From Methanosaeta sp. PtaB.Bin018 (GTDB taxonomy: Archaea > Halobacteriota > Methanosarcinia > Methanotrichales > Methanotrichaceae), in the NCBI GenBank assembly GCA_002067755.1, contig MVQH01000088.1:1-64000 (forward strand): a stretch of DNA of 64,000 nucleotides, given 5' to 3'. Under the pieces are notes generated by a model. The model searched no databases, was not told the origin of the DNA, and saw nothing but the letters and a program-made list of their open reading frames with translations. This document shows, one piece after another, positions 10,860 through 61,257 of this stretch. The translations under genes were made by a program, and so were the position numbers. Within the stretch, counting starts at the first letter, position 1. Each line of letters opens with the position of its first letter.

Positions 10860-11768
10860 ATGAGCCAAGAGACGTTTCCCGTTGCCAACGTAAGTGGTAG
10901 GGAGGTCCCGTACGACCCTGAGCAGCTCAGGCGGATTCAGGAGCATCCGTGTTTCAGCGAGAAGGCCTGTCATGCTTTCGGCAGGATGCACCTGGCTGTG
11001 GCGCCTAAATGCAACATTCAGTGCAAGTACTGTGTGCGGGACTACGACTGCGTGAACGAGTCCAGGCCTGGCGTGACCTCTCAAGTCCTGAAACCCTTGG
11101 AGGCCCTGGAGCGCGTGGATCAGGTGCTTGATAAGTATCATTACATCAAGGTAGTCGCAGTAGCAGGTCCTGGCGAGCCCCTGGCAAACGAGGAGACCTT
11201 CGAGACGCTCCGCCTGGTAGGGGAGAAGTATCCCAACATCATCCTCTGCATTAGCACCAATGGCCTTCTCTTGCCTGACAGGATTGAGGAACTGGATCGG
11301 CTCGGCGTCTCCAACATCACAGTTACGCTGAACGCCATAGATCCCCAAATCGGCCAGCAGATCTATGACTTCGTATTTTATAAAGGCAAGAGATACGAGG
11401 GCCTAGAGGCTGCAACTCTGCTGCGCGACCAGCAGCTGAAGGGCATTGAAGAGGCCCTCAAGAAAAAGAAGATCGTCAAGATCAACACAGTCCTCATCCC
11501 TGGAATCAACGACAAGCACGTCTTCGACATAGCCCGCAAGATCAAGTCCATGGGAGTCTACATCCACAATGTCATGCCCCTGATTCCCCAGTACAAGTTT
11601 GCGCACATCAAGCCCCCGTCGCCTGAGGAGAAGAGAAGGATCCAGGAGGAGCTGGGAAGGATCATCAAGCAGATGAAGCACTGCCGTCAGTGCCGATCCG
11701 ATGCCATAGGACGCCTAGGATGCGATGTACAACAGGAGTTCCAGAGCAGGAGGAAGGAAGAAGCATAA
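10860..11768 (+). CDS. nifB: NifB-type radical SAM protein (Fe-S-C cluster synthase)
   Basis: NifB fuses two [4Fe-4S] clusters and inserts carbide to make the [8Fe-9S-C] precursor of nitrogenase cofactor. Visible are HPCFSEKACHAFGRMHLAVA, the radical SAM cysteines C51-x3-C55-x2-C58 (CNIQCKYC), GPGEPLANEETFE, and the C-terminal HCRQCRSDAIGRLG. At 302 aa it is the short archaeal form without a fused NifX domain. GGAG lies about 8 nt before the ATG. No nitrogenase genes are in the window, but three NifX-domain proteins and the MCR-activation genes are. Confidence 0.92.
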   Translation: MSQETFPVANVSGREVPYDPEQLRRIQEHPCFSEKACHAFGRMHLAVAPKCNIQCKYCVRDYDCVNESRPGVTSQVLKPLEALERVDQVLDKYHYIKVVAVAGPGEPLANEETFETLRLVGEKYPNIILCISTNGLLLPDRIEELDRLGVSNITVTLNAIDPQIGQQIYDFVFYKGKRYEGLEAATLLRDQQLKGIEEALKKKKIVKINTVLIPGINDKHVFDIARKIKSMGVYIHNVMPLIPQYKFAHIKPPSPEEKRRIQEELGRIIKQMKHCRQCRSDAIGRLGCDVQQEFQSRRKEEA

Positions 11769-12114: not shown

Positions 12115-12828
12115 ATGCTGCGCCAAAGGTTCGTGCTGGATACAACAGCACTCACAGACTCACTTGCCTGGGAGAGCGAGGGCTGTACCAGCATTTGCGA
12201 AGGAATGAATGCCATCCTAGACCGCGTAGCCGAAGGCAGACTTCATCTGGGAATCAGCTGCTACATCCCTTATCCTTCGGTATACAATGAGATCAAGGAC
12301 TTTGCCCGTCACAATAACTGCGATTCTGCAGTCCTGAGCAAGGTCGATACCTGGCTCGTCAAAAAGACACCGGATAGGTACAAGGTTAAGGTGCCTTCGA
12401 AGATCTTTTATGAGTATGTCGACTACATGCGCAGCCGCATCAACAAGGGCATGAACATCTCCGAGGAGGCCATCTGGGAATCCGTAACCCGGTGCATAGC
12501 CCTGAGCGAAGGAGGCAACAGCTTGAAGGAGATGAAGGATGAGATCGAAAGAGAGGTCGTGGGAAGCATCATCCGCAAGTTCAGGGAGAAATACAGAGCT
12601 GCACTTCGCTACGGCATCCTTGACAGTGCTCCTGACATAGATGTCTTGCTCTTGGCCAAGGAGCTGGATGCGGCTGTGATCTCTCAAGACCTGGGCATCC
12701 AGCGCTGGGCAGAGCAGCTCGGCCTGCGCTTCATGGAATCTAGGTCCTTTCCAATAATGATCAAGGAGTACATGAATGCGCTGCCGGAGCTGTATGTGGA
12801 AGAAAAAGACGAGGACAGGATGATCTGA
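12115..12828 (+). CDS. RNA ligase partner protein (PIN domain, UPF0278)
   Basis: The 237-aa product begins RQRFVLDTTALTDSLAWES, with the conserved aspartate of a PIN nuclease fold. It continues with GISCYIPYPSVYNEIKDFA and DIDVLLLAKELDAAVISQD, the second acidic region. The whole matches the archaeal family named for its association with RNA ligase. No RNA ligase gene is next to it here. A TATA-like TCATATAGC lies about 25-30 nt before the ATG with no Shine-Dalgarno, so the mRNA may be leaderless. Confidence 0.85.
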   Translation: MLRQRFVLDTTALTDSLAWESEGCTSICEGMNAILDRVAEGRLHLGISCYIPYPSVYNEIKDFARHNNCDSAVLSKVDTWLVKKTPDRYKVKVPSKIFYEYVDYMRSRINKGMNISEEAIWESVTRCIALSEGGNSLKEMKDEIEREVVGSIIRKFREKYRAALRYGILDSAPDIDVLLLAKELDAAVISQDLGIQRWAEQLGLRFMESRSFPIMIKEYMNALPELYVEEKDEDRMI

Positions 12829-13272: not shown

Positions 13273-14097
13273 TCAGATCTTTCCCGGCTTTTCCAGCAGC
13301 CTTGTCTTTGCCATCAACTCTCCAGTGCGGGCATGTGGCTTTCTGGAGACAGAATCATTCGCCTTCTCCATCTCCCTGGACTCATCCGCCAGGCGGCCTG
13401 CCGCTCGCATGACCTCGTGGCCCGCGGCGGCCATAAGGGCTATGGCCTCTAGCTCCTTGAGACGGAAGCAGGCTGTAGCGTCGATGGTTGCCACAGTCTG
13501 TGCCATATAGAGCGCAGCAACTGCTTTGGCGCGAGCATATGGATTGGAAAAGTTCATGCGCTCAGCACACTTTTCTGGCGTGGCAAGGATCGCGGGTAGC
13601 TTTGGCTCACCGCTAGCAATTGACGTCATGGCCTTGTCCAGCTCTTCCTGAACCAGCCTGATTGCGCCGCAGGCGGCCAGGACCTTCAGCGCATCGGAGT
13701 TGAAGAGGGCCATCTCTGATGGGTCGAGGAACTCGCGCTTGGCTCCGATGAGAGGGTCTACGGGAAGGATTATGTAGCCAAAGCCCTCGGCAGCAAGAGC
13801 ATCGCGCGCTTCTTTCTTGGTAGGGCCGTCTGAGATGACGATGGTTGGCAAGCCCTTGAACTGCTCGCGCGCGCTCGTAGGTCCTGCGGTCGCAGCATTG
13901 GGACTGCTTACCACGACGAGCTGCGGCCCCCAAGCCTTCAGCTCTGCCGAAGCTTCTCCCTCTTTCTTGGTCATCTTTGGTCCAAAGCTGATGATCTTAA
14001 ACTCTAGATCCGTCCTTTCCGCAATTTCGTCCAGGGCGAGATCAATTGCCGTTGATGTAGCAATGTTTCCCAGTTTTACAAAACCGATCTTGAACAT
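13273..14097 (-). CDS. mtd: F420-dependent methylene-H4MPT dehydrogenase
   Basis: Mtd interconverts methylene- and methenyl-tetrahydromethanopterin (or sarcinapterin) with F420. The protein begins MFKIGFVKLGNIATSTAIDL and has SSPNAATAGPTSAREQF and DPLIGAKREFLDPSEMALFN, all family signatures. At 274 aa it is full length. I chose ATG 14097; an upstream in-frame ATG at 14184 would add 29 residues absent from the family. In an aceticlastic methanogen it would serve biosynthetic or reverse C1 flux. Confidence 0.95.
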   Translation of the reverse strand: MFKIGFVKLGNIATSTAIDLALDEIAERTDLEFKIISFGPKMTKKEGEASAELKAWGPQLVVVSSPNAATAGPTSAREQFKGLPTIVISDGPTKKEARDALAAEGFGYIILPVDPLIGAKREFLDPSEMALFNSDALKVLAACGAIRLVQEELDKAMTSIASGEPKLPAILATPEKCAERMNFSNPYARAKAVAALYMAQTVATIDATACFRLKELEAIALMAAAGHEVMRAAGRLADESREMEKANDSVSRKPHARTGELMAKTRLLEKPGKI

Positions 14098-14207
14098 GCG
14101 ATGCTTGAGGGTTAAGAGAAGATAAAAGGGTTTTCGTTTTTGTCGAGCCAGCATGCCGGCCTCCAGTTGAAAGGATAAATACACCTCCAGACTAAGAACT
14201 GTCTTTT

Positions 14208-15266
14208 GTGAGCAACTTGTCTGATTACTCCCGCAATCTCATGCCCTTCCTGGCAGACATCGAGCCTGATGAGGCGGGTCCCAATCCCGTTGAGGTGTCC
14301 CGCAGATATGGCGTTGCCCTGCAAGATATCTTAATCCTCAGCCGTAACGAGAATCCATACGGCCCCAGCCCCAGAGTGCGTGAGGCCCTGTCAGAGGCGT
14401 CGTTACACAGATACCCAGATCCTCAGCCATTTGTCAGTGCTGTGGCAAACTATGTGGGCTTTCCAGAAGAAAATATAGTTGCAGGCGCGGGCATGGACGA
14501 GATCATAATGAACATCGCCCGGCTCTTCCTCGGCAGGGGAGACAAGGCTCTCATTCCCATTCCTACCTACAATCTGTACGCTCTGGCCGCTCGGCTCTGC
14601 CAAGCACAGGTCGTCCGCCAACCGATGCTTTCCGGCTTTGAACTGAACCCGCACATCCCCGATGGGATGAAGATGGTCTTCATCTGTGCTCCAAACAATC
14701 CGACTGGCAGCATCATCTCGGAGGAGACGGCCAGGGCGATTCTCGAAGGCACAGAGGGGATGGTCTTTCTGGACGAAGCTTATGCCGAGTTTGCTGAAAA
14801 GAGCCTGATCTCTCTGGTCAAGGAATATGATAATCTGGTCGTGGGAAGGACGCTTTCAAAGGCATTTGGCCTGGCAGGCCTGCGCCTGGGCTATGCTGTT
14901 GCGCCACAGTGGCTGGCCGCACAGTATCGGCGCGTGGCACCTCTGTTCAGCATGAGCAGTGCATCCCTGGCAGCAGGAGTGGTCGCCTTGAAGGATCTGG
15001 ACTACATGAAGAAGACGACGGCAAAGATTATCGCTGAGCGAGAGCGACTGCTTCTGCAGCTGGACGGGGCTCATCCTTCACAGGGCAACTTCATCTGCAT
15101 CTTTACACAGGAGAGATCAAGCATCGTAGCAGAACGGTTGCTGTGCCAAGGTGTAGTGGTAAGAGACTGCAGCTCTTTTCCTGGTGCTGGGATGCACTGC
15201 CTGCGCGTCAGCATCGGAACGCCCGAGCAAAATGACAGGTTTCTTGAGGCCTTTGCAAAAGCCTGA
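14208..15266 (+). CDS. hisC: histidinol-phosphate aminotransferase
   Basis: This class I/II PLP aminotransferase acts in histidine synthesis. It shows SRNENPYGPSP near residue 45, then APNNPTGSI, FLDEAYAEF, the PLP lysine K218 in GRTLSKAFGLAGLRLGYA, and the C-terminal LRVSIGTPEQNDRF. At 352 aa it is normal length. The start is GTG 14208. It is divergent from mtd with about 110 nt between, and converges on the aconitase X small subunit. Confidence 0.92.
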   Translation: MSNLSDYSRNLMPFLADIEPDEAGPNPVEVSRRYGVALQDILILSRNENPYGPSPRVREALSEASLHRYPDPQPFVSAVANYVGFPEENIVAGAGMDEIIMNIARLFLGRGDKALIPIPTYNLYALAARLCQAQVVRQPMLSGFELNPHIPDGMKMVFICAPNNPTGSIISEETARAILEGTEGMVFLDEAYAEFAEKSLISLVKEYDNLVVGRTLSKAFGLAGLRLGYAVAPQWLAAQYRRVAPLFSMSSASLAAGVVALKDLDYMKKTTAKIIAERERLLLQLDGAHPSQGNFICIFTQERSSIVAERLLCQGVVVRDCSSFPGAGMHCLRVSIGTPEQNDRFLEAFAKA

Positions 15267-15281
15267 CCCAAATTCCCTCAC

Positions 15282-15674
15282 TCAAATCCTGATAAGTCCA
15301 TGGTCGGCGTCGACCTCTATCCATGTGCCGCTCTTGATCTGCATCATCCCCTCCGGCACTCCGTCCACAAGAGGGATGCCGCTGATTATTGCCCCGACTG
15401 CCACTATGGGCTCAGAGCGCAGGTTAATCATGGCCGCAGGAGCCAAGCCCCTCTTCTTGAGCTGGTAAATCACATAAGACCCGACGGTAGAGCCCTTGCC
15501 CCCGGGAAAGATGAGAACATTTCCTGCAATGCACTGGCCAAATAGATCATGCGCGGGGTCTACTACCACGCCTGTATTGGGATCGACGTTTCCCAGGAAG
15601 GATATCGGCTCCTTCGTTGCCAGGGCCGGGCCGCTTGCGCAGCCTGGAGCAATTTTTCTGCACAAGATCTCCAA
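15282..15674 (-). CDS. aconitase X small (swivel) subunit, phosphomevalonate dehydratase
   Basis: Together with the large subunit this forms the Fe-S dehydratase that turns 5-phosphomevalonate into trans-anhydromevalonate phosphate in the archaeal mevalonate pathway. The swivel-domain sequence has CRKIAPGCASGPALAT, GQCIAGNVLIFPGGKGSTVG and DADHGLIRI. No ATG is available. TTG 15674 has GGAGG 8 nt upstream and lies just after the large-subunit stop, giving 130 aa, the expected size. TTG 15680 is the alternative. Confidence 0.88.
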   Translation of the reverse strand: MEILCRKIAPGCASGPALATKEPISFLGNVDPNTGVVVDPAHDLFGQCIAGNVLIFPGGKGSTVGSYVIYQLKKRGLAPAAMINLRSEPIVAVGAIISGIPLVDGVPEGMMQIKSGTWIEVDADHGLIRI

Positions 15675-15676
15675 TC

Positions 15677-16846
15677 TCAAAGCCTCCCAAGCGCTGAATC
15701 GATGCACCTCTCCAAGGTGCCAAAGCCAGCCTGAACGCCGCAAAGGCCTGGGATGTAGACCAGCGCCTTCCCTGAGTTCACCATCATCTTCTTGTAGCGC
15801 TCGCATGCAGGGGAGACCACCATGCAGGTGTCGCAAAAGACCCTAGCACCGCTCGCCTCGATCCTGGCCACAAGCTCCGGGCACGATTCTGCGATCTTCC
15901 TGGCTGTAAAGACCCACAGCTCCTTTTTCACAGTCTTTCCTTCTAGCAGCGCGGCAACCTGCTCCAGCTCCTGCTCGGAGCAATGGGGACATCCCAGCGC
16001 AATGATGTCTGCATCTCTTCCAGAATGTTTTTTGTAAACATCGTCGATATCCGCTCTATCAATGGCGATTTTCTCCTCAGGCCTCGCCTGGGAAGGTGGC
16101 GGTGGCGTGACGTTCTTGACGTAGTAGAGGGCAACAGATCCACTGGCGGCCATGGATGCACCGAGGGCCTTCAGCTCGTCTGAATTGGGCCTGGATCGCA
16201 GATGGAAAATGGGCACGCCATCCTTGACGATCCTGCCCACAAGAAACCCAACAGCTCCATAGTCAGCGCCCGCTAATTCGTCCTTAATTTCAACTAGGTG
16301 CGTGGGCTTGCGGTTTTCATCCAGGTGGTAACCATAGAGCGGCGTCTTTCCGATCAGTGCTGCCGCCAGCGCGGAAGGCCCGCCCTCCCTGTTGGTCATG
16401 GCGCCAATGACAGAGTTGGCGTATGAGACAGCAGACGATTCGCTCCAGGCAAGGTGATCGCCCCGGCATGCCAGGGAGTCGTAGAGCTGGTAGGGCGTAC
16501 AGGTACAGTCTGTGGTGATTTTCAGTTTACGGTAAGCATCGATGGTAGCCTGCTGCTTGCAAGCGAACTCTTCCGTGATTCCCATCTCCTTCCAGCGGCG
16601 AAGGTCCATTCCACATGGATTGAGGATGCTCGGCACCCGCACGCGACCATTGAGATCAGATATCCACTGCAGGCCTGCGTCGCCGATATTCTTGAATGAT
16701 ACGCCTGCAATCTGAACAGACCTCACGGGCACAAGCCTTTCTGCGCCATAGATCTCGCCCAGAGCCACCAAGATATTCATCATCTTCTGGAGGGTTGGGC
16801 CATGGTCGCCCCTGCAGATGTCCTCCTCCTCGCGAGAAAGATACAT
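15677..16846 (-). CDS. aconitase X catalytic (large) subunit, phosphomevalonate dehydratase
   Basis: This is the large subunit of AcnX. It shows TDCTCTPYQLYDSLACRGDH and WSESSAVSYANSVIGAMTNR, both conserved in this family and containing likely cluster and substrate residues. DTCMVVSPACERYK and PGLCGVQAGFGTLERC follow near the end. It is 389 aa. It lies 36 nt after the MtrH paralogue and directly ahead of the small subunit, all leftward. The dehydratase role is family knowledge from other archaea; pathway partners HMGS, EgsA and CarS are elsewhere in the window. Confidence 0.9.
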   Translation of the reverse strand: MYLSREEEDICRGDHGPTLQKMMNILVALGEIYGAERLVPVRSVQIAGVSFKNIGDAGLQWISDLNGRVRVPSILNPCGMDLRRWKEMGITEEFACKQQATIDAYRKLKITTDCTCTPYQLYDSLACRGDHLAWSESSAVSYANSVIGAMTNREGGPSALAAALIGKTPLYGYHLDENRKPTHLVEIKDELAGADYGAVGFLVGRIVKDGVPIFHLRSRPNSDELKALGASMAASGSVALYYVKNVTPPPPSQARPEEKIAIDRADIDDVYKKHSGRDADIIALGCPHCSEQELEQVAALLEGKTVKKELWVFTARKIAESCPELVARIEASGARVFCDTCMVVSPACERYKKMMVNSGKALVYIPGLCGVQAGFGTLERCIDSALGRL

Positions 16847-16882
16847 GATGTGCAGTCTCTTCTCATCCCGTATAAATCAATT

Positions 16883-17806
16883 CTAGACCAATCGATTGAG
16901 AGGATGCTCCAAGGCAGGCTCGATCTCCAGATCTCTCACTGCCTCTGCAATCATGATATCGGCCATTGCTGCCGCTGGGAAGATGAACTTCGCACTCTCA
17001 ATCGGCCCGTAAAGCAAGAAGTCGCCCGCTGCCCCAAGCTGCAGGGCTGAGGCTGCAGCATCGCAGCACCACTTTGTAGCCTTATCCGCTGAACGCAGCC
17101 AAGGCCATGCGCTTACAGCATTGTGAATTCCTGAGCCTGTGGGCAGCCCGAGCCTTGCCTTGACAACTACGGAAAAGCGCAGCGCCGATCCGGCGCCGCT
17201 GCCGAGTGGAACGATGCCAGGGTCGATAAGCAGATTGACCAATCCAGCGTCGTTTGCGAGCGAAATCAAGCCCTTTTCCTTGACAGATCCTCCTGTCTCC
17301 AGAACCTGAAGAGATCCGTCAACGCTTGAGTTCGCTGGGTTGTAGGCTAAGATTATGGCCGAATCCATCTCCGAATCCCTGATTGCCTGCGCTTCAGCCT
17401 CACCTGTGGCGACGCTGATGCTGTTGTAAATGGATTTGTCTGCATATCCAATCTCCGAGACGAGCTGTGCTGAGGCTGAACGCACCGAAGGATCTGCAGA
17501 GTCGATGATCAGCGGCCCATCCCAAGCATCGTCTGCAAAAGCAAGATATCTTTCTGCAGCCTCTATGGTGCGGGCGTAAAGATGCAAGATTGCCGGATTT
17601 CCGGTCTCTTCGGAGAGCTCTGCCTGGCGGCTCACAAGCAGCTCGGCTGCGAGCCTGTCGAAGACCCCCAGCGCATCATCCTGCACAATCCTATGCCCCT
17701 GATAAAATATTGTGCCACAAAGAACCGTGGGCAGCTCGCCAGGCTGGCCTCCAAATTTCACGCCCCCGACGTTTACAATTGTCTGCTCGTGCTTGAACCT
17801 GAACAC
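16883..17806 (-). CDS. soluble MtrH paralogue (methyltransferase)
   Basis: This second MtrH homologue is 307 aa. It shares with the mtr-operon MtrH (56.3 kb) the start MFRF, GGQPGE, the FPAAAMADIM segment and the YGPIE motif, but differs through much of the middle. MtrH transfers methyl between H4MPT and the MtrA corrinoid. GTG 17806 is the start with a G-rich Shine-Dalgarno. It follows the MtrA paralogue by 15 nt and precedes aconitase X by 36 nt. No membrane Mtr subunits accompany it, so it probably acts in the cytoplasm with an unknown methyl donor or acceptor. Confidence 0.88.
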   Translation of the reverse strand: MFRFKHEQTIVNVGGVKFGGQPGELPTVLCGTIFYQGHRIVQDDALGVFDRLAAELLVSRQAELSEETGNPAILHLYARTIEAAERYLAFADDAWDGPLIIDSADPSVRSASAQLVSEIGYADKSIYNSISVATGEAEAQAIRDSEMDSAIILAYNPANSSVDGSLQVLETGGSVKEKGLISLANDAGLVNLLIDPGIVPLGSGAGSALRFSVVVKARLGLPTGSGIHNAVSAWPWLRSADKATKWCCDAAASALQLGAAGDFLLYGPIESAKFIFPAAAMADIMIAEAVRDLEIEPALEHPLNRLV

Positions 17807-17821
17807 GCAAGTTCCCCCCAG

Positions 17822-18430
17822 CTAATTTTCCTCTGCGAAAACGAGCCACGCAGCTGTGTCCATGGCCGTTTCCGCACCTAAGATCAGGTCTCCTTCTCCT
17901 GCCCAGATCTCCTCTCGCGCGGCCTTCCTCTTGACCACCAGGAAAGGCTCACCAGGATAGGGCTCAGCCAAGCGGTTGTATCTTTCGATTTGCAGGGCGA
18001 TCTCGTCTTCATCCTCCAGCCCTATGCAGTCTATCAGCTCCACCTGCTCCTGAAAACGCCTCACAGCTTCTGGTGGCAGATTCTGGATGAAGGGAATTGC
18101 GCCCTTTGAGCCGATGATCCTCCCTTGCTCGTCTATGCCATTTCTGTGTAGTGCTAGGAGGGTATCTCCAGGCAGATGGCCCTTAGACTCCACCCCGCAG
18201 ATGATGAGGAACCTTATGTTGCAGTTGGAGATCGTATTGGCCACGATCTTCTCTACGCCAAGGTTCTCGGTCTTGCAGGGCCCGCTGATAGCTGCGCCCT
18301 CTGCACGAAGCCTGCTGGCTAAGGTGACAACTGCCACCTTTGCCTCAGGATCCCCCACCACGTAATCGCCGCACACAGGTGGCCAGAAATCGTCATGCCC
18401 TCTTAGAGAATTGCTGCATTCCTTGGTCAT
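17822..18430 (-). CDS. soluble MtrA paralogue (corrinoid protein without membrane anchor)
   Basis: This homologue of MtrA shares [34 protein letters not shown] and [17 protein letters not shown] with the operon copy at 57.7 kb. It keeps the His in ESKGHLPGD, equivalent to KGHITGQ of MtrA, whose His I recall as the cobalt ligand. It ends [10 protein letters not shown] with no C-terminal transmembrane helix, unlike the operon MtrA. I chose ATG 18430 because GGATGGAG precedes it and homology begins there; ATG 18481 would add 17 unlikely residues. It heads the MtrA-MtrH-AcnX operon. Confidence 0.88.
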
Positions 18431-18546
18431 CGAAGCTCCATCCACTCCCTCAAAATCATGGCTGGGCGACCAGCATAGCATATCGCAGATGTTAGCCGGG
18501 AATTAGCCACGAAGCCTCATCGTCCAGGGCAGGAGGAAGTCGCCCG

Positions 18547-27816: not shown

Positions 27817-29433
27817 ATGGGGCATGATAGTTTGGCACCTTTTATCGAGATTCGGGATTTGACAGTTCAATTCGGTGAGGATGTTGCTCTTCGAAAGATT
27901 AACCTTGTCATTGAGGAGGGCGAGTCGGTAGGGATTTTGGGCAGGAGCGGCTCTGGAAAAAGCGTACTGATGCATGTCCTGCGCGGCGTAGAGTCGTTCC
28001 AAGGAATTTCCGGGAGCGTGATCTTCCACGTGGCCCGATGCGAAAAGTGCAGGCATGTGGAGCCTCCCAGTCACGCCGGAGAAAAATGTCGTTGCGGTGG
28101 AGTACTAAGAGCCGTTGAGGCTGATTTTGTCTCTCTGGACATAAACGACCCACTGCGGCGTGACATCGTGAAAAGGATCGCCATCATGTTGCAGAGGACC
28201 TTTGCCCTTTACGGCGATGAGAGGGTAATTGTGAACGTCATGAGGGCTGTGGAGGAGACGGGAGAGTCCATGAGCGTTCACCATGCAGCCGACTTGCTAG
28301 ATGAGGTCAACCTCTCTCACAGGCTAATGCATGTTGCCAGGGAGCTGTCTGGCGGAGAAAAGCAGCGCGTTGTTCTGGCCCGCCAGCTAGCCAAGTCGCC
28401 AATGGTCCTTCTGGCAGACGAGCCTACAGGAACCCTTGATCCGTCAACCGCGAGGGTGGTGCACGATTCAATCAAACGGGCTGTCCAGGACTTCAAAATG
28501 ACCCTTATCATCACCAGCCACTGGGAAGATGTGATGGTCGAGCTGGCAGACAGGGCGATATTGCTGGACCAAGGAGAGATCAAGGCAGTGGGGGCGCCAA
28601 AAGAAGTCGCCGCCCAGTTCCTGGCCATGGCAGGAGAGCTCGGCAAGCGAGAGGAGGTTAAAGTAGGAGCTCCAATAATCAAGGCCAATAACCTGGCCAA
28701 GAGATACATCAGCATTGATCGGGGCGTGGTCAAGGCTGTAGATGACGTGAGCCTGGAAGTGAAGGAAGGGGAGATATTCGGCCTGGTAGGAGTCTCTGGA
28801 GGCGGCAAGACGACGCTATCCAAGATGGTGAGCGGCATCATCACGCCCACAAGCGGCAGCATCTCTGTTCGTGTGGGAGACGACTGGGTGGATCTCACAG
28901 TTTTAGGGTCCAATGGCCGCGGAAGAGCGACTAAATATATCGGCATTCTCCATCAGGAATATACCTTGTATCCATCCAGAAGCGTCCTTGAGAACCTGAC
29001 CGAAGCCATAGGCCTTTCACTGCCATTTGAGCTGGCAGAGAGGAAGGCCATCCATACCCTGGAGACAGTTGGATTCACCGAGGACCAGGCAGAAGCTGTT
29101 CTCACCAAGATGCCTGACGAGCTCTCAGAGGGGGAGCGCCACAGGGTAGCCATGGCACAGGTTCTGATAAAAGAGCCACGCATCGTCATCCTCGACGAGC
29201 CCACTGGAACCATGGACGCCATCACCAAGATCGAGGTCACAAAATCAATCCTCAACGCCCGCGAGGAACTGGGCGAGACCTTCGTCATAGTGAGCCACGA
29301 CATGGACTTCGTGAGGAACGTCTGCGATCGGGCGATGCTCATGCGCAATGGAAAGGCGGTATTCACAGGTCTTCCTGAGGAAGTCCTGGCCAAGATCACA
29401 GAAAAGGAAGAGAAGGAGATGCTGGGGAGTTAA
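27817..29433 (+). CDS. atwA: methyl-CoM reductase activation ATPase, component A2
   Basis: AtwA is the ATP-driven part of the system that reduces Ni of F430 to activate methyl-coenzyme M reductase. It has two ABC cassettes. The first has GRSGSGKS, LSGGEKQRV and LLADEPTG. The second has GVSGGGKT, LSEGERHRV and VILDEPTG. Between Walker A and the signature of the first cassette lies a Cys insert (CEKC...CRCGG) that may bind metal. At 538 aa it is full length. It leads a seven-gene operon of methanogenesis marker genes. Confidence 0.93.
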   Translation: MGHDSLAPFIEIRDLTVQFGEDVALRKINLVIEEGESVGILGRSGSGKSVLMHVLRGVESFQGISGSVIFHVARCEKCRHVEPPSHAGEKCRCGGVLRAVEADFVSLDINDPLRRDIVKRIAIMLQRTFALYGDERVIVNVMRAVEETGESMSVHHAADLLDEVNLSHRLMHVARELSGGEKQRVVLARQLAKSPMVLLADEPTGTLDPSTARVVHDSIKRAVQDFKMTLIITSHWEDVMVELADRAILLDQGEIKAVGAPKEVAAQFLAMAGELGKREEVKVGAPIIKANNLAKRYISIDRGVVKAVDDVSLEVKEGEIFGLVGVSGGGKTTLSKMVSGIITPTSGSISVRVGDDWVDLTVLGSNGRGRATKYIGILHQEYTLYPSRSVLENLTEAIGLSLPFELAERKAIHTLETVGFTEDQAEAVLTKMPDELSEGERHRVAMAQVLIKEPRIVILDEPTGTMDAITKIEVTKSILNAREELGETFVIVSHDMDFVRNVCDRAMLMRNGKAVFTGLPEEVLAKITEKEEKEMLGS

Positions 29434-29434
29434 T

Positions 29435-30961
29435 TTGAGAGTCTTTGTTGATGGCAGAGAGATCGAGCTTGGCGAGGGGGCATGCCTTGGAGACGCCCTT
29501 GTAAAAGCAGGTGCGGACCCAGCCGAGGGCGCTATCGTAGGAGTCGTCAGTGGCAGGGGCGAAAGATCGCGCCAAACCAACTCGTATTGGCTCAACACCA
29601 CCAAGGGCAAGCTCAGAATAGAGCTTTTGAATACTGACCTGCAAAATGTCTGGCACGAGAGCGTAGCCAAGATCCAGGGATGTGAGGTGAGATGGGCTTC
29701 GGCAGATGGCATTGCCTTCGGGCCGTTCGCATCGTCTCTCTCCTTCAGTCGCGAGGCTCACGAGTATAACCGCTGGGATGTGGTGCTGGGAGCTGCAGGA
29801 TTTGAGGCCGAGAAGACCCATCTCATCTTCGTGCGCAGAAGGCATGCTGCGGTTTATGGGGCACCAATAGATGGAGGCAGGCTTGCCCATGTAGTTGGCG
29901 GCAAGAACACCCTGGATCGGCTCGAAACAGGAGATAAAATCTTAGGAATTGAGCCAGTCGTAGAATGGCAGGATCTCACAGAAAAGCTGGCCACGATGGA
30001 CAGATCTCTTCCCTTGGGGGACGGCATGGAGATCTTCACTCAGATCATTGTTGAACTCATCGAAGATGCGCCAGAAGGAGCTGAATTTTTCCTGGCCTTG
30101 ACCCGCGATGGGACCTTCAAGGTCGATTCAGTATCCAGCTCGTATATCTCCTCAGATCAATTGTTGACCGAGCCCATAGTCTTCGAGCACCGCGAACCAA
30201 GGCTCGAAGGCGCTGTCACAGTGAGAACAAGCGGCAGGGGCCTTGGCAGGATCTTCATATACAAAGCTGACCGCACCTCAAATCCCGGCCATTCTGTGGT
30301 GGCGCGCGTCAATTCCGGAATGGACCTGGTGAAGCTCGCAGAGCCCGGCCAGCTGGTGACAGTACGGGTGAAGCCTGAGCGCATCATTCTCATGGGCTCC
30401 AAGCTGGCTGATGCCCTCTCCCTCCTGAAGGCTCAGGGAATTGAATCAGAGGTGGAAGGCCATACTGGCGATGATGCCGTGGTGGTGGCGCAAGATCCAA
30501 AAACCACCATGCAGATCCTAAAAGACAGGAAAGTGAAGCTTGTTGCCATTCCAGCCAGCCACCTCATCTCCATTGAGCTTTACTATGACAAAGCTCCCAA
30601 GACTCTGGATTACTTCCGTCATGTAACGGGCCTAAAAGAAAGGCCAGTAGGCCCTCTGCCCGTCTATTTTGTATATGAAAATACTCTGCTCTTCAAGCCC
30701 CAGATAGATGCCGTCAGCTATAAGGAATTGCTTCCTGAGAACAAGCCCACGGGTCTGGTGCCTGCTGGCGCAATAGGCGTCTCCAATCAGGTGGCAAAGA
30801 AGATAGGACTTGTTGGGGTGAGGCTTGTGCAGGACAAGCGTTACGGGCCTTCAGGAGAGAAATTCGAGGCGACGAACATCATCGGCAGGGTCCTAGAGCC
30901 TGAGAAGCTTCAAGATGTCAAGGAAGGAGAGACGATTTATGTTCAGGAGGTGCGCAAATGA
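29435..30961 (+). CDS. mmp3: methanogenesis marker protein 3 (UPF0288)
   Basis: The protein of about 509 aa begins with a ubiquitin-like segment (VFVDGREIELGEGACLGDAL). Later come NPGHSVVARVNSGMDLVKLA and the C-terminal region with VVAQDPKTTMQILKDRK, the pattern of marker protein 3. I chose TTG 29435, which has GGGGAG upstream and lies one base after the atwA stop. Mmp3 is reported in MCR-activation complexes. The stop overlaps mmp6 (ATGA). Confidence 0.9.
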   Translation: MRVFVDGREIELGEGACLGDALVKAGADPAEGAIVGVVSGRGERSRQTNSYWLNTTKGKLRIELLNTDLQNVWHESVAKIQGCEVRWASADGIAFGPFASSLSFSREAHEYNRWDVVLGAAGFEAEKTHLIFVRRRHAAVYGAPIDGGRLAHVVGGKNTLDRLETGDKILGIEPVVEWQDLTEKLATMDRSLPLGDGMEIFTQIIVELIEDAPEGAEFFLALTRDGTFKVDSVSSSYISSDQLLTEPIVFEHREPRLEGAVTVRTSGRGLGRIFIYKADRTSNPGHSVVARVNSGMDLVKLAEPGQLVTVRVKPERIILMGSKLADALSLLKAQGIESEVEGHTGDDAVVVAQDPKTTMQILKDRKVKLVAIPASHLISIELYYDKAPKTLDYFRHVTGLKERPVGPLPVYFVYENTLLFKPQIDAVSYKELLPENKPTGLVPAGAIGVSNQVAKKIGLVGVRLVQDKRYGPSGEKFEATNIIGRVLEPEKLQDVKEGETIYVQEVRK

Positions 30962-31374
30962 AGGTCACGAAGTACGTTATAACATCCTCTGAGTCGGACA
31001 TTCTTCCCTCGGATATTGCCATGAAGATTTATGGTTCAAAATACGATGTCAACGTCAAAGAGACCTGCTTTGGTGTGATGGTCAATGGCGAAGAGGAGGT
31101 TGTAGACGCTCTGGTGAAGGATATCAGGGCTCTGGACCCTGCGGGCATCTTCATCAAGGATAGAGGCTTCCCGCCAGGCGATCCCAGACGCTGCCGGGGC
31201 CACAGAGGCGGCGGAGCACGGCCGGGCTTTTACATGATCGAGTCCGAGTCGAAGATGCTGCCCATGATATCAAGGGCGCTGGCCTCCGGCGGCGAAGTCA
31301 CCGCGATTCCTGAGAAGAAGAAGCCACTTTTGCCCAGCAGACTGGAAGAAATCATTAAAGAGGATCTATCCTGA
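30958..31374 (+). CDS. mmp6: methanogenesis marker protein 6
   Basis: This 138-aa protein of the marker 6 family begins KVTKYVITSSESDILPSDIA and has CFGVMVNGEEEVVDALVKDI. A very conserved GDPRRCRGHRGGGARPGFYM segment lies in the middle. The precise function is unknown; linkage with mmp3, mmp5, mmp15 and mmp17 ties it to MCR maturation or activation. It overlaps mmp3 by 4 nt. Confidence 0.9.
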   Translation: MKVTKYVITSSESDILPSDIAMKIYGSKYDVNVKETCFGVMVNGEEEVVDALVKDIRALDPAGIFIKDRGFPPGDPRRCRGHRGGGARPGFYMIESESKMLPMISRALASGGEVTAIPEKKKPLLPSRLEEIIKEDLS

Positions 31375-31383
31375 GGTACATCA

Positions 31384-31821
31384 ATGTCAAAAGTCATCGT
31401 TTATCCTCCGACCAGCATGATACTCTCGGACCTTGTGGAGAGGATGGGCCACAAAGCGCTAGTAGTTCCCGAAAGGGTGCGCGAGCTCGTCACTGCAAAT
31501 GACGTCCAGTCCCCTCCGCTGAACGTCACCCCTGAAGAGCCGAAGAAAGGGTTGCGCTATGCAGCCGTTGATGTGCCATCGGGGGTGAGGGGCAGAATGG
31601 CTCTGATCGGGCCCCTGATCGAGGAAGCAGAGGCTGCTATAATCGTCGAAGATCCAGGATGGTTGACCGGCTGTGCAGGCTGCAGCCGGACCAACGAGCT
31701 GGTGAGGCTGCTCATCCGGACCAAGGGGATACCTGTGCTTGACCTGAACTATCCCACAGACGATGCGCAGGCAAAGGTGTTTGTGCAGAAGATCAGGGCC
31801 TTCTTGGAGGGATTGAAGTGA
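31384..31821 (+). CDS. mmp5: methanogenesis marker protein 5
   Basis: The 145-aa protein has [20 protein letters not shown] at its start and an [20 protein letters not shown] segment whose CxxC could bind metal. The pattern is that of marker protein 5. A GAGGTAC lies upstream of ATG 31384. The stop overlaps the mmp15 start (GTGA). The function is unknown. Confidence 0.88.
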
Positions 31822-33044: not shown

Positions 33045-33045
33045 G

Positions 33046-33618
33046 ATGGACCCCATGGAGGTCTTCAAGATCGAGGTCACAGGGCAGGAGGATTTCGGGA
33101 GGAAAAAGTACCGTGAGCTCATCATGGACATCTTGCAGGACCTGGGTCTGATCAGGTCTATCGGCAGGCTTTACGTTTACATCGACGTCATGGAACCGAT
33201 CTTTGCCGTTTACGGCCTGCTGAGAAGCGGAATTCCACCGCTCACAGTCAAGGATGTGGGCGATGTGATGAAGGCAGAAGGCGGCTACCAGATCAAGATC
33301 AATGATGAAGAGCACATGGCAGATCTTCTCAGGGTCTTGTGGGATCGATATGGTCGAGAGAGAGTGGAACAGCCTGTGCGCGACGTCGTGATCATTGCCT
33401 CTGATACCGATCCTTCAGGGCTCATGGTAGCGGACCTGGAGGCAGAGTTCCTGCAAGATCTGACAGATGGCCTGATAAGGGTGGCTCCAGAAGGTTTTCG
33501 TAACCGACGCAACGAAATGACCAAAGACAGCTTCTTTTTTATAGCAGCCGAGGAGACCCTAACCCCGGAATTGATTGCCAAGACGAAAGAGAAGGTCAGG
33601 GAGATGGAAAATGCTTGA
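33046..33618 (+). CDS. mmp17: methanogenesis marker protein 17
   Basis: The 190-aa protein begins near MEVFKIEVTGQEDFGRKKYR and has LYVYIDVMEPIFAVYGLLR and DVVIIASDTDPSGLMVADLE, the marker 17 pattern. Mmp17 has been found with AtwA, Mmp3, Mmp7 and McrC in MCR-activating complexes. The start is one base after the mmp15 stop, and the end overlaps mmp7 by 8 nt. Confidence 0.9.
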   Translation: MDPMEVFKIEVTGQEDFGRKKYRELIMDILQDLGLIRSIGRLYVYIDVMEPIFAVYGLLRSGIPPLTVKDVGDVMKAEGGYQIKINDEEHMADLLRVLWDRYGRERVEQPVRDVVIIASDTDPSGLMVADLEAEFLQDLTDGLIRVAPEGFRNRRNEMTKDSFFFIAAEETLTPELIAKTKEKVREMENA

Positions 33619-56318: not shown

Positions 56319-57254
56319 TTAAAGCGTCGTCTTCCTTGGATGCTTCTCTGCCAGAACCTGCAGTCCAAGCTCTTCTGCCGACTCTGCCTTCATGATATCG
56401 ATCATGGCAGCAGCAGGGAAGATCATGGGAGCATTTTCTATGGGCCCGTAGAGGTAGTAGTCAGCACCCACGATTCCGGCTACCAGGTTAGAGCCGATGT
56501 CGACTGGAGCGAACGCCTCCTTGTGCTGCTTCTTCCACTTCTTCATCCAGTCCCAGGCAGATGCACCGTTATGGAAGCCTCCGCCCACTGGCAGGCCAAG
56601 CTGGGCCTTGACTGCAATGCAGGCGCGATATGTCGCACCAGATCCGGCTCCAAGGGGCATTGCTGCAGTATCGATGAGTGGCCTGGTGATGCCGCACTCC
56701 TTGGCGTACTCCAGCATACCCTTCTTGGCGCCTCCTGCAGCCTTTGTCAGGATATCCATCTTGCCCTTGGTTCCCTTCTCCATGGCATTGAATGCGAGCA
56801 CGATAGCTGAATCAAGATCGCTCTCCTTGACGGCAGCCAGCTCCTCATCAGTGATGGAGGCATTGATGGAGTTGTGGATGGCCCTGTCGGCAACGCCGAT
56901 CTCAGTGGCGTACTTGACTCCAAAGGCCCGCACCTCTGGTGCAGAGGAGTCGATGAGGAATGGATAATCGGAGAGCCCCACGAACCAGTCGATCTCCTTG
57001 GCCATTGCCTCATTGCTCTCTGCGACTATCTGATTCATGCATGTGTTGCCCGTGACCTCGCTCATCTCTACCTGTGTGTTCCAGAGCCTCTCTGCAGCAG
57101 CCTTATCGAAGACTCCGTGCTCCGGATCCGAGACGATCTTGTGCCTGGCATAGAACATGGTGCCGATGCAGCATGTGGGGTACTCACCAGGCTGTCCCCC
57201 TATCTTGAATTTGCCGAAATCGAAGACTTCTTGCTTCCTATCAAATCTGAACAT
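56319..57254 (-). CDS. mtrH: tetrahydromethanopterin S-methyltransferase subunit H
   Basis: MtrH moves the methyl group between the pterin and the MtrA corrinoid. The 311-aa protein has MFRFDRKQEVFDFGKFKIGG, then LGAGSGATYRACIAVKAQLG, LPVGGGFHNGASAWDWMKKW and FPAAAMIDIMKAES. It is the last gene of the mtr operon and directly follows mtrG (0 nt gap). A soluble paralogue is at 16.9-17.8 kb. Confidence 0.97.
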   Translation of the reverse strand: MFRFDRKQEVFDFGKFKIGGQPGEYPTCCIGTMFYARHKIVSDPEHGVFDKAAAERLWNTQVEMSEVTGNTCMNQIVAESNEAMAKEIDWFVGLSDYPFLIDSSAPEVRAFGVKYATEIGVADRAIHNSINASITDEELAAVKESDLDSAIVLAFNAMEKGTKGKMDILTKAAGGAKKGMLEYAKECGITRPLIDTAAMPLGAGSGATYRACIAVKAQLGLPVGGGFHNGASAWDWMKKWKKQHKEAFAPVDIGSNLVAGIVGADYYLYGPIENAPMIFPAAAMIDIMKAESAEELGLQVLAEKHPRKTTL

Positions 57255-57500
57255 CTAAATCACCCTCACCCAATTGCCTGCGTATACGAACAGTATGTAT
57301 GCCAATACCAAGATCAACCCCGCGCAGATACCATAGGCTGCGCCCAGATCCCTGCCGATGGACTTGCCGGCCCTCATGTACTTCTCAGAGGAGTAGAACT
57401 CCACCTTCTCCTCGATCCTTTCCAGCCTTGCCATTATATCTCTGAGTTGATCAGGGTCGACCACGGCAACTGGTACTATCGGTTTCGTGTCTTCTGCCAT
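57255..57500 (-). CDS. mtrG: tetrahydromethanopterin S-methyltransferase subunit G
   Basis: The 81-aa subunit has an N-terminal soluble helix (DPDQLRDIMARLERIEEKVE) and a C-terminal membrane helix (AAYGICAGLILVLAYILFVY). This one-helix plan is that of MtrG. It lies between mtrF and mtrH with spacing of 0-3 nt. Confidence 0.95.
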   Translation of the reverse strand: MAEDTKPIVPVAVVDPDQLRDIMARLERIEEKVEFYSSEKYMRAGKSIGRDLGAAYGICAGLILVLAYILFVYAGNWVRVI

Positions 57501-57503
57501 AGT

Positions 57504-57731
57504 TTACAGCCCCCCCATGAAGGCGAATGGCCCGAGCATCATAACGACGGCAAGGACAAAGCCAATCGCAAATCCTATGGAGACAGTCGCCAGAACACCG
57601 GAACTCAGCTTGGTCTCTCTGGCCAGGAGCTGCCCCCTGTACCTGACGCTCTCGACGATGGCATCTATCATAGGCATATTGGGTTCCACAACGGTTGGAA
57701 TTCCCTGACCGTACTCTATCTCTTCAGCCAT
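57504..57731 (-). CDS. mtrF: tetrahydromethanopterin S-methyltransferase subunit F
   Basis: The 75-aa subunit has PNMPMIDAIVESVRYRGQLL and then one membrane helix (VLATVSIGFAIGFVLAVVMM). It resembles the C-terminal anchor region of MtrA, as usual for MtrF. It is 2 nt after mtrA. Confidence 0.95.
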   Translation of the reverse strand: MAEEIEYGQGIPTVVEPNMPMIDAIVESVRYRGQLLARETKLSSGVLATVSIGFAIGFVLAVVMMLGPFAFMGGL

Positions 57732-57733
57732 TT

Positions 57734-58465
57734 TTACCTCCCTCCTGCCACCCTCAGAATTATTCCGAAGAGGATGAGGACCATGGTCATGCCAAGAGCG
57801 ATGCCCTCGATCTTGCCAACATAGATGCCAGCCTGCAGCTTGTTGAGAAGACCAGCGTTGATCACATTGGCCTCTATGCCGCGCATCCTCGACCTTACCT
57901 CAACCATCTCCGCGGCCATGGGCTTCAGCCCACCTGCCTCTTCTTCTGCCCCGCCCTCTTTGATCTCGATGGTCATGGGCTCAACATCAAGGGCGCCTGG
58001 GTCCTTGGAGACCAGCTCCTTGATCTTTGCGGTGATGGCTCCCATGTCCTCGGTGTTTATCATCATGACAGCCTGCACCTGGCTTCTCCACCGCTCAATT
58101 GCCTCGGGAGTCAGGTTCTGGATGAAGGGGATTGCACCCTTGGCTCCAATGATCCTTCCTTCCTTGTCAATTCCGTTTTGCGTAAAAGCCTCGACTGCCT
58201 GTCCGGTGATATGTCCCTTGACCTCCATTCCCGTTATCAGTACGAATCTGATGTTGGGGTTGGAGATGACATTTGCAACCATCTTCTCAATGCCGATGTT
58301 CTCAGTCTTGCATGGTCCCGCTAAAGCTGCGCCCGCCTTGATCAGATCGGCATTGTGAAGGTGAGATCCGCAGGTGCAGACCGCTACAGGGCTCTCGGGA
58401 TTTCCGACCTCGTACTCGCCGGTAATCGTTGGCCAGGGCTCTGATGGCTTCTTTTTGAGCACCAT
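57734..58465 (-). CDS. mtrA: tetrahydromethanopterin S-methyltransferase subunit A (corrinoid)
   Basis: MtrA carries the cobamide whose methylation and demethylation drive sodium transport. The 243-aa protein has GNPESPVAVCTCGSHLHNAD, GPCKTENIGIEKMVANVISN, the cobalt-ligand region MEVKGHITGQ and [20 protein letters not shown]. An acidic linker follows, then a C-terminal membrane helix (GIALGMTMVLILFGIILRVA). This anchor is missing in the paralogue at 17.8 kb. Confidence 0.97.
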   Translation of the reverse strand: MVLKKKPSEPWPTITGEYEVGNPESPVAVCTCGSHLHNADLIKAGAALAGPCKTENIGIEKMVANVISNPNIRFVLITGMEVKGHITGQAVEAFTQNGIDKEGRIIGAKGAIPFIQNLTPEAIERWRSQVQAVMMINTEDMGAITAKIKELVSKDPGALDVEPMTIEIKEGGAEEEAGGLKPMAAEMVEVRSRMRGIEANVINAGLLNKLQAGIYVGKIEGIALGMTMVLILFGIILRVAGGR

Positions 58466-58468
58466 TCC

Positions 58469-58822
58469 TCAAGCACCTCCGCCAAGTGCCTTTCTGACGA
58501 TCCCCATCGTTGCCGGGTCGTTAAATGCCATTACCAGCAGTATTACGAATGACAGCACGAGACCGATGATGAAGCCCATCCATATGTTGGTGTACAGGCC
58601 TGCGATGTATGAGGCCTTTCCGCGGTTGGCGTACGACGAGAGAAGCTCGTTGTCCGGCACAAGCTGGTTCATCAGGTCATCAGCTATCTTGTCAAGCTTT
58701 TCTACCCTTTCATAAACAGGGTCAAAAGTGTACAGAACCACGTCCGGCCTCTGCTCCGATACCACTCCTTTCATAGGGTCGAAGATCAGGCCCAGTTCTG
58801 GTGAAACTCTAACAAATCCCAT
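58469..58822 (-). CDS. mtrB: tetrahydromethanopterin S-methyltransferase subunit B
   Basis: The 117-aa subunit has an N-terminal soluble part (VRVSPELGLIFDPMKGVVSE; DPVYERVEKLDKIADDLMNQ) and one C-terminal membrane helix (WMGFIIGLVLSFVILLVMAF). This is the normal MtrB plan. It lies between mtrC and mtrA. Confidence 0.95.
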   Translation of the reverse strand: MGFVRVSPELGLIFDPMKGVVSEQRPDVVLYTFDPVYERVEKLDKIADDLMNQLVPDNELLSSYANRGKASYIAGLYTNIWMGFIIGLVLSFVILLVMAFNDPATMGIVRKALGGGA

Positions 58823-58834
58823 TTCCAGACCTCC

Positions 58835-59662
58835 TCACTGCACCGTTGGCGGCAGAAGTCCTGTTCCGACCACCGCTGCTGCATCTCTCTTGACCAGCTT
58901 GTAGTACATCTTGAAGAAGTAGAACCACAAGGCAAAGCCGATGACAAGCTGCAGTAGTCCCGCAGCCAGCCCTTGAGTCAATATAGCCGCAATTCCAGTA
59001 GCGATCATCGCAATTCCACTAACCATGATCGCATTTACTAGGGTCCTGTCCTGCTTCTCATCTGGGCCTAAATTGGCGTTGAAGGGATGCAGAATGGCAA
59101 GGCCTCCGGCAATGAAGATTATGGCTATGTAGCCAGTCATTAGGACGTTCTTCACAATGTCGAAATACCCCAGATTACCGGATACTGCAAAGCTCCAGCC
59201 CAATATAGCCATCGCACCCGCCATTGAGAGGTCTGCGTTGCCCTCCTCCATGACTGGGATGTTGAACTTGATGACTTTATTGGCGAGAACTCCAATGATG
59301 TAACCGAAAACCCCAGCATACACAAGGGTTATGATTGGTCCAAGCAGTCCGAAGCCCAGGGTTTCAGCAACAGACAGTCCAAACATGACTGCGATGATGC
59401 CCATGCCCAAGGCCAGCATGCCGATCGACGGAACTCCTGTTCCTATGCCGTAAGCGCATATCCTCCGAACGGAATTGGCTCCCATTACTACGGCAAAGAT
59501 GGCGGCCACGGCTCCTACGAATGAGAACACATTGGTGTTCAGCGCCATGTTGAGGATGGCACCCAAGTATATTCCAACCACAGACCCGACAAGGCCGTAC
59601 ATCCTGATCTTCTTCGGGTCAAATGCAGACGGCGCTCCGCCTGCTCCTCCACCTACTGTCAT
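58835..59662 (-). CDS. mtrC: tetrahydromethanopterin S-methyltransferase subunit C
   Basis: This is a 275-aa polytopic membrane subunit with about six to eight helices, e.g. IAAIFAVVMGANSVRRICAY-like and GMLALGMGIIAVMFGLSVAE. Together with MtrD and MtrE it forms the sodium-translocating membrane part. The N-terminus is Gly-rich (TVGGGAGGAPSAFDPKK). It is 3 nt after mtrD. Confidence 0.95.
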   Translation of the reverse strand: MTVGGGAGGAPSAFDPKKIRMYGLVGSVVGIYLGAILNMALNTNVFSFVGAVAAIFAVVMGANSVRRICAYGIGTGVPSIGMLALGMGIIAVMFGLSVAETLGFGLLGPIITLVYAGVFGYIIGVLANKVIKFNIPVMEEGNADLSMAGAMAILGWSFAVSGNLGYFDIVKNVLMTGYIAIIFIAGGLAILHPFNANLGPDEKQDRTLVNAIMVSGIAMIATGIAAILTQGLAAGLLQLVIGFALWFYFFKMYYKLVKRDAAAVVGTGLLPPTVQ

Positions 59663-59665
59663 TTC

Positions 59666-60355
59666 TTAGGCACCTCCTGTGATCAATACAGCTGCTAGTG
59701 CGAGCAAGATGCTTGCAATGGCACAGGCGCGGAATGCGAATGGCCACTTCTTGAACTTGGGATCATGAAATCCTTCTATTGTTCCCTGGATATTCCAGGA
59801 TGCAAGCACGGCGTTCACAAGGAATATGCCAATGGCAAACATGGCACTCAAAGCAGCATTGCCGTTGATCAGATAAAGCGGATAGTAGATCATGGCGCCA
59901 CCAAGGCCGCCCATCATGCCGCCGATGAGGCCGGAGACGAAGCAGATGGTGGGAATGCCCTGACCGACAGTTCCAGGAGCCACATATGGCGGCTGGGAGA
60001 AGCCGGTTATGGGATCGTAGTTGACCTTGGCCGAGGCGAAGGGCGCTCCAACTGCATATGCATAAATCCAGGATCCTGTGAGCATTGTGGAGCCGATCAT
60101 GATTCCTGCGCCCACAGCCCCCGAGGCCAGTATGAGCCACAGGTTGTCTGTGACTGACATCATGAGGCCTGCAGCCAGAAGGCCCGTCAAGCCTGATCCT
60201 GCTGCGAGCTGCACTGTGCCAGTGCCAATGCCAGTTGCCTGAGCCATGGCAGCAGGCGCTCCGCCCACGGGCACGAAGTGCACGCCAATGCCCACCAGGA
60301 GGCCGCCGACGAGGATCTCCAGGATGTAGACTATGGTATTGATATCAAAGTTCAT
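59666..60355 (-). CDS. mtrD: tetrahydromethanopterin S-methyltransferase subunit D
   Basis: This is a 229-aa membrane subunit with helices such as IVYILEILVGGLLVGIGVHF and a C-terminal ACAIASILLALAAVLITGGA. The loop KVNYDPITGFSQPPYVAPGT is typical of MtrD. It overlaps mtrE by 4 nt (ATGA). Confidence 0.95.
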   Translation of the reverse strand: MNFDINTIVYILEILVGGLLVGIGVHFVPVGGAPAAMAQATGIGTGTVQLAAGSGLTGLLAAGLMMSVTDNLWLILASGAVGAGIMIGSTMLTGSWIYAYAVGAPFASAKVNYDPITGFSQPPYVAPGTVGQGIPTICFVSGLIGGMMGGLGGAMIYYPLYLINGNAALSAMFAIGIFLVNAVLASWNIQGTIEGFHDPKFKKWPFAFRACAIASILLALAAVLITGGA

Positions 60356-61257
60356 GCTGCAATGTCCCCCTTGTACTCTGGATATGGTCCGTACTTTCTT
60401 CTGGCGGACTTCTCTATGTATAGATTATAGAAGACCTCAACGATGATAAAGAAGATTCCCATGGCAATGGCAAGAGACGCCTGAGTTACTGGATCAAAGA
60501 CAGTCGTCCTCCAGTTGTCCAGGAAGACCGTCAGGCCAAAGCCCATTCCAGTTGCAGGCCCGCCGAATTTGGTACAGAACCATGCATTGTCTATTGAGTT
60601 CCTCAAGCCTGCCTCTGCCTTCCGGACGATCTGGCCGGAGAGCATTGTATTCAGGCCGCAGCCGAACTGCCTATTCTGGAACTCGCGCTCGCCGCCATAG
60701 TGAATGTCGCCCACAGAAGAGCCGATGGCGCCCACTGCCAAACCCCAGATCAAGGCGATGATCGGCATCGGGAAGGGGTGATGGATAGGCAGCATATAAA
60801 CCATGATGTAAGAAATAGTTGCAATACAAAACGATGTTATCCAGGCATGCGCCATAATCGATGGTGTTGTGTACCTGACTATGTCCAGATAGACCCACTG
60901 GTTGAACCTCCTCTGGCTGGAGTTCCTGCCGAAGTAGGCGCTTATCGCAAAGACACCGTTGAACAGAGCGGCAACGGATGCGCCTGCCACGAGGGCAAAC
61001 AGTGCGGGCATCTGGAAGGCCGTGATAAGCGTATAGGCCACCATAGCTGCAGTGGCTGCCCACAGGGCATTGGCCGGGGGTTCTCCCGAGATGGCCTTAT
61101 TGTAGATCCTGTGGGGGTTGCCGACCTGGGCAGCCAGTTGAACCTGCGAGTTAGGATTGCTCTGAGATCCTACATCGGACTCGATATCCTCAGAAGCACC
61201 TGCTACCGTCGCAAGGGCTCCCATAGCAGCTATAAGCCCCATGCTAAATGCGTCCAT
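60352..61257 (-). CDS. mtrE: tetrahydromethanopterin S-methyltransferase subunit E
   Basis: This is a 301-aa membrane subunit, first in the mtr operon. It has SQSNPNSQVQLAAQVGNPHR and IYNKAISGEPPANALWAATA, and EREFQNRQFGCGLNTMLSGQ, typical of MtrE. A strong GGAGGAGG lies just upstream of ATG 61257, and a clear BRE/TATA promoter about 85-100 nt upstream. Confidence 0.96.
   Translation of the reverse strand: MDAFSMGLIAAMGALATVAGASEDIESDVGSQSNPNSQVQLAAQVGNPHRIYNKAISGEPPANALWAATAAMVAYTLITAFQMPALFALVAGASVAALFNGVFAISAYFGRNSSQRRFNQWVYLDIVRYTTPSIMAHAWITSFCIATISYIMVYMLPIHHPFPMPIIALIWGLAVGAIGSSVGDIHYGGEREFQNRQFGCGLNTMLSGQIVRKAEAGLRNSIDNAWFCTKFGGPATGMGFGLTVFLDNWRTTVFDPVTQASLAIAMGIFFIIVEVFYNLYIEKSARRKYGPYPEYKGDIAA

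Follow-up and report, generated by a model that had tools for sequence, protein, structure and literature searches.

Soluble MtxA/MtxH beside the phosphomevalonate dehydratase genes of Methanotrichaceae: gene order, a candidate acnX promoter and a proposed anabolic methyl relay

The mtxXAH operon of Methanosarcinales encodes soluble paralogues of MtrA and MtrH, named MtxA and MtxH (PMC4632066, PMC3087415); another study took them as its outgroup, "with a distinct function" (PMC9982363). As relayed in PMC4632066, Harms and Thauer proposed in 1997 that mtxXAH supplies H4MPT with methyl groups taken from methylotrophic substrates. For the comparisons below, reference residues were taken from the cobalamin site of MtrA (PMC4915002), the modelled pterin-binding site of MtrH (PMC10998594) and the characterised or structurally solved AcnX enzymes (PMC10040528, PMC8184944). 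A further point of comparison is the methyl-corrinoid-dependent core methionine synthases MesA, MesB and MesC, predicted methyl takers from MtrA or CoFeSP; MesA is predicted to use MtrA and MesC to use CoFeSP (PMC7857596).

Identity and active sites of the mtxAH and acnX products

We analyzed a stretch of 64,000 nucleotides (the window) from a Methanothrix-type genome of 2.23 Mb that is 96% complete; its closest named loci are those of two Methanothrix MAGs (L084 and L085). Open reading frames confirmed the layout given by the first-pass annotation, in which MtrA and MtrH paralogues, separated by 15 nt, precede both AcnX subunits by 36 nt, all on the minus strand. The first gene, mtxA (17822..18430), encodes a soluble MtrA paralogue of 202 aa (Pfam MtrA, 2.7e-59), and its start at 18430 matched the two nearest relatives better than did an alternative upstream ATG at 18481. 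The 15-nt gap separates its stop at 17822 from the GTG start at 17806 of mtxH (16883..17806), which encodes an MtrH paralogue of 307 aa (Pfam MtrH, 4.3e-105). After the mtxH stop at 16883, 36 nt lead to the start at 16846 of the AcnX large subunit (15677..16846; Pfam AcnX, 4e-152), and 2 nt more to the small (swivel) subunit, which has a TTG start (15282..15674; Pfam AcnX_swivel, 3e-35; NCBIfam NF003046 over cut-off). On the AcnX side, the convergent flanking gene is hisC (14208..15266, plus strand), common to several relatives, followed by mtd for methylene-H4MPT dehydrogenase (13273..14184, minus strand), which is the next same-strand gene past AcnX in several genera. Near the locus, 10860-11768 and 12115-12828 hold genes for a NifB-type radical SAM protein and an RNA-ligase-partner PIN protein, and 27817-34534 holds a dense series that reads like methanogenesis marker genes.

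The canonical membrane-bound operon, mtrEDCBAFGH (56319..61257, minus strand), lies 38 kb from mtxAH in the same window and provided the comparison set (MtrA, 57734-58465; MtrH, 56319-57254). In a tree with 56 MtxA rows, whose support values are rough, the window protein grouped with MtxA and was separated from canonical and group III MtrA (support 92/88), and Methanotrichaceae MtxA formed one group. The two proteins are MtxA and MtxH, and because these are known from the mtxXAH operon, the pair is not new. Like the products of that operon (group II mtrA, subgroup II mtrH), they are soluble tandem paralogues of the same clade that lack the anchor. The locus differs in that the gene directly upstream of mtxA is SRP54, the MtxX homologue being encoded on contig C21, and that the downstream partner is acnX; furthermore, Methanotrichaceae relatives have a divergent HTH/KaiC pair and CooSF upstream.

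The absence of a membrane anchor and the presence of the GHxxG histidine, both noted in the first pass, were borne out. No C-terminal membrane helix was found in MtxA (maximum 19-residue Kyte-Doolittle mean of 1.44, versus 2.41 for the canonical MtrA anchor), and the histidine is present as KGHLPG. The other residues of the MtrA cobalamin site are also retained (the GDY turn, KTEN and GAIPF), including the lower-ligand His and the Glu54/GAIPF network, and 26 relatives show no variation in TENLG, the GH histidine or GAIP. An AlphaFold model of MtxA (mean pLDDT of 82) matched the MtrA crystal structures 5l8x and 5laa with E values of about 1e-16. In MtxH, all residues of the modelled pterin site are kept (D102, N128, D195 and N229). 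MtxAH thus shares with the canonical complex the fold, the cobalamin site with His84 and the GAIPF segment, and the MtrH pterin residues, but MtxA has a conserved C-terminal tail (GD...D) instead of an anchor helix or linker, and MtrBCDEFG are not part of the system. With complete active sites and no anchor, the two proteins are predicted to be a cytoplasmic corrinoid protein and a pterin:corrinoid methyltransferase, as the first reading of the locus had it.

Comparing the three nearest genomes in pairs gave dN/dS of about 0.08-0.20 for the three genes, with 0.17-0.20 for MtxA and 0.08-0.09 for MtxH. The pair is under purifying selection, and these values rule out a decayed duplicate.

The AcnX large subunit has all three Fe-S cysteines (C116, C286 and C341) and the residues of the MVA5P site (G48-V49-S50, N53, N76-P77 and K360), and the small subunit carries the catalytic GKGSTVG motif (S62-T63-V64, numbered from the TTG start). 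The closest solved structure to the large subunit is 7cnr, AcnX of T. kodakarensis. AcnX is single copy in the window genome, and its companion, a UbiD-type decarboxylase, is encoded in the same genome (C71:36776-38014, 54% identity). Since the Fe-S cysteines and the mevalonate-phosphate site are kept, AcnX is almost certainly a phosphomevalonate dehydratase by these sequence features. It shares the two subunits, three cysteines and MVA5P-site residues of the type IIb enzymes of A. pernix and T. kodakarensis, and differs from them only in its genomic neighbours.

The mtxH-acnX junction and a candidate acnX promoter

The usual order in Methanotrichaceae is CooS-CooF, KaiC, HTH (facing away), mtxA, mtxH, acnXL and acnXS, after which hisC and mtd often come. 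Results of the neighbourhood survey showed that mtxH is followed directly by acnX in 20 genomes from 9 genera of this family, with gaps of 36-194 nt, and this recurrence indicates that the arrangement is more than chance. A literature search found no paper linking AcnX to MtxAH. The pair itself also occurs in ANME-2, Methanoperedenaceae and Methanocellales, as well as in Methanosarcinaceae; the order in most Methanosarcinaceae is RfcL, MtxX, MtxA, MtxH, and that in Methanocellales is RfcL, MtxA, MtxH. MtxX was sought beside the pair in Methanotrichaceae and was not there. Methanosarcinaceae acnX sits behind its pathway partner, the UbiD-type decarboxylase that would use the AcnX product, and therefore the AcnX junction is a derived arrangement of one family, the Methanotrichaceae. 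The Methanosarcinaceae AcnX-UbiD neighbourhoods (L176-L179) also encode an M50-like protease and a B12/radical SAM protein of TIGR04013, the latter tested in L176.

The junction is missing in what we take to be the M. thermoacetophila-like genus and also in several Methanothrix genomes, and is interrupted in two more. At least five changes are needed to place it on the tree of the MtxAH pair. Two genomes carry AcnX relics beside MtxH (L039:9182-9370 and L204:4989-5976) together with an intact AcnX elsewhere, and the M. harundinacea line has kept mtxH beside acnX but has mtxA at a different place in the genome. These breakages suggest that an ancestral gene order has been eroding. Conservation of the neighbourhood, on which the first-pass annotation had made its functional link depend, therefore held in part: the junction recurs across nine genera, but it is derived, and several lineages no longer have it intact, two of which retain decayed relics.

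The mtxH-acnX gap of the window contains TTTATA (16871..16876, minus strand), a TATA-box-like candidate AcnX promoter 30 nt before the start codon of the large subunit. A match to this hexamer (at least 5 of 6) was found at -34 to -24 from the AcnX-L start in 17 of the 20 genomes, which places the conserved box some 28-32 nt upstream of the start codon, compared with a mean of 1.2 and a maximum of 6 in 2000 shuffles of the gaps. The same test at control starts gave no match for MtxH (0/16) or AcnX-S (0/13). Shine-Dalgarno-like runs were absent before AcnX-L and precede AcnX-S and many MtxH starts. A leaderless archaeal transcript is expected to have a TATA box at about this distance from its start codon. 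The conserved box inside the gap suggests that AcnX is probably a separate transcription unit and that acnX is probably transcribed mainly from its own predicted promoter in the 36-nt gap, with low-level read-through from mtxAH being possible. The earlier proposal of one operon with AcnX, which an internal promoter was to count against, is made unlikely by this predicted promoter (17/20, versus 1.2 in shuffles), and a single functional unit of MtxAH and AcnX without a separate AcnX promoter is likewise disfavoured by it.

We considered whether MtxAH and AcnX might nevertheless be functionally coupled, either because co-transcription lets methyl or acetyl-CoA status set the rate of isoprenoid synthesis (membrane lipid, methanophenazine) or because MtxA methylates an isoprenoid product. 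The 36-nt same-strand gap, the persistence of MtxH with AcnX even after MtxA has departed, and the recurrence of the junction, which could be read as selection for co-transcription, are in keeping with such coupling. However, AcnX has its own TATA box, is tied to the UbiD-type decarboxylase elsewhere, and has repeatedly lost the junction, leaving relics, and we know of no methylation step in the archaeal mevalonate pathway. Because AcnX has its own start signal and frequently parts from the pair, a shared job is unlikely, and we regard this coupling as improbable. The tie to isoprenoid synthesis put forward in the first pass is thus probably one of gene order only.

Upstream sequences and the CooS-CooF genes

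Many Methanotrichaceae (L035, L042, L050 and others) have genes for a monofunctional CO dehydrogenase, CooS-CooF, upstream of mtxA, together with a divergent pair that encodes a KaiC-like/GvpD-like ATPase and a winged-HTH protein. The region between HTH and mtxA in relatives contains a conserved sequence, ATATTTCWATTTTTCATA, once per genome as a perfect match, which makes it a candidate private operator. The window genome is different: a relative's operator, ATATTTCTATTTTTCATA, stays with the HTH/KaiC/CooSF genes on contig C37 (L197:8600-8700), and a comparison of the SRP54-mtxA gap (18431..18546, minus strand) with the relative's mtxA leader showed that similarity stops roughly 12 nt ahead of the mtxA start codon, near position 18442. 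Here mtxA now follows SRP54 without its own promoter and operator, and the pair has been cut from its promoter either by a real rearrangement or in a chimeric contig.

The order CooS-CooF, KaiC, HTH, mtxA-mtxH in many Methanotrichaceae, and the candidate private operator in the HTH-mtxA interval, would fit a role of MtxAH in catabolic C1/CO metabolism, as a CO- or redox-responsive cytoplasmic shunt of methyl groups off H4SPT. To complete such a shunt, a soluble CoM methyltransferase would be needed; however, members of PF01208 were found in none of the ten Methanotrichaceae genomes searched, compared with 5 and 14 in two Methanosarcinaceae. Hence these ten genomes have no known PF01208-family route to CoM or from methylotrophic substrates, and this absence counts against a CoM bypass as well as against methylotrophy. 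Furthermore, outside Methanotrichaceae the surroundings of MtxAH include neither CooSF nor the regulator, and even in the window genome both have become detached from the pair. We therefore consider the shunt doubtful.

A proposed methyl relay to an anabolic acceptor

The published proposal of methylotrophy draws on the operon of the pair with MtxX in methylotrophic Methanosarcinaceae. Against it speak the intact pair in Methanotrichaceae, which lack the PF01208 methyltransferases (ten genomes searched), and the intact pair in ANME-2 and Methanoperedenaceae loci. Methanotrichaceae are moreover described as obligately aceticlastic (PMC3349665), and the pair is missing from some Methanosarcinaceae genera. 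We consider this function very improbable.

The reading that we prefer, at a probability of roughly 0.6, is that MtxAH is an anabolic soluble relay, that acnX is expressed mainly from its own promoter, and that the adjacency of the two reflects inherited gene order and not a shared pathway. Most likely, MtxH would move a methyl group between methyl-tetrahydrosarcinapterin and the Co(I) of the cobamide that MtxA carries, with His84 as ligand. Being soluble, MtxA would then not feed a membrane pump but would pass the methyl group on to an acceptor in the cytoplasm. The acceptor is probably anabolic, and homocysteine, reached via a core methionine synthase, would be the leading candidate. The acnX genes, presumably with a leaderless mRNA, would be neighbours by virtue of the gene order inherited in Methanotrichaceae.

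Relatives of Methanocellales with small genomes (G065, G083, G107 and G112) gave a positive hint of an anabolic acceptor: in these four, MtxA-MtxH are encoded on one strand with Mmp14, MesA and ThyA (loci L164, L166, L170 and L171). The MesA of these clusters is over the NF002119 cut-off, and ThyA is the thymidylate synthase of methanogens. Mch is also encoded on that strand in the three genomes where the analysed stretch extends far enough. A DHH-like gene follows MtxAH in three of the four MesA-linked genomes, and also in Methanocellales and ANME-2 loci. The presence of MesA in the cluster, together with its predicted MtrA donor, favours an anabolic relay, for which methionine synthesis would be the leading candidate route. 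In its most specific form, MtxAH would be an anabolic counterpart of Mtr, passing methyl groups from methyl-tetrahydro(sarcino)pterin to the core methionine synthase, and would be the missing corrinoid donor for methionine synthesis in a subset of methanogens and ANME archaea; this we offer as a tentative idea.

Several observations count against the preferred reading of an anabolic relay. The four genomes that show the link to MesA all belong to one distant lineage, and other genes intervene between MesA and the pair; mtxAH of Methanotrichaceae differs from the MesA-linked clusters in having no such neighbour, and MtxA is there a putative donor. Methanotrichaceae and Methanosarcinales use MesC, for which the predicted donor is CoFeSP (PMC7857596), and a search for MesC near mtxAH found none. 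Several Methanosarcinaceae genera are without MtxA, and methionine must therefore be made otherwise there. The absence of PF01717 matches is uninformative on methionine synthesis, because PF01717 does not pick up MesC.

MtxAH has had a name for almost thirty years, and its function is still uncharacterised. The suggestion of methylotrophy is a poor fit to the presence of the pair in aceticlastic Methanotrichaceae and in ANME archaea, and the neighbourhood survey leads to a testable alternative, in which MtxAH may serve as a methyl donor for anabolism. The AcnX junction, for its part, is a warning against inferring a pathway link from adjacency.
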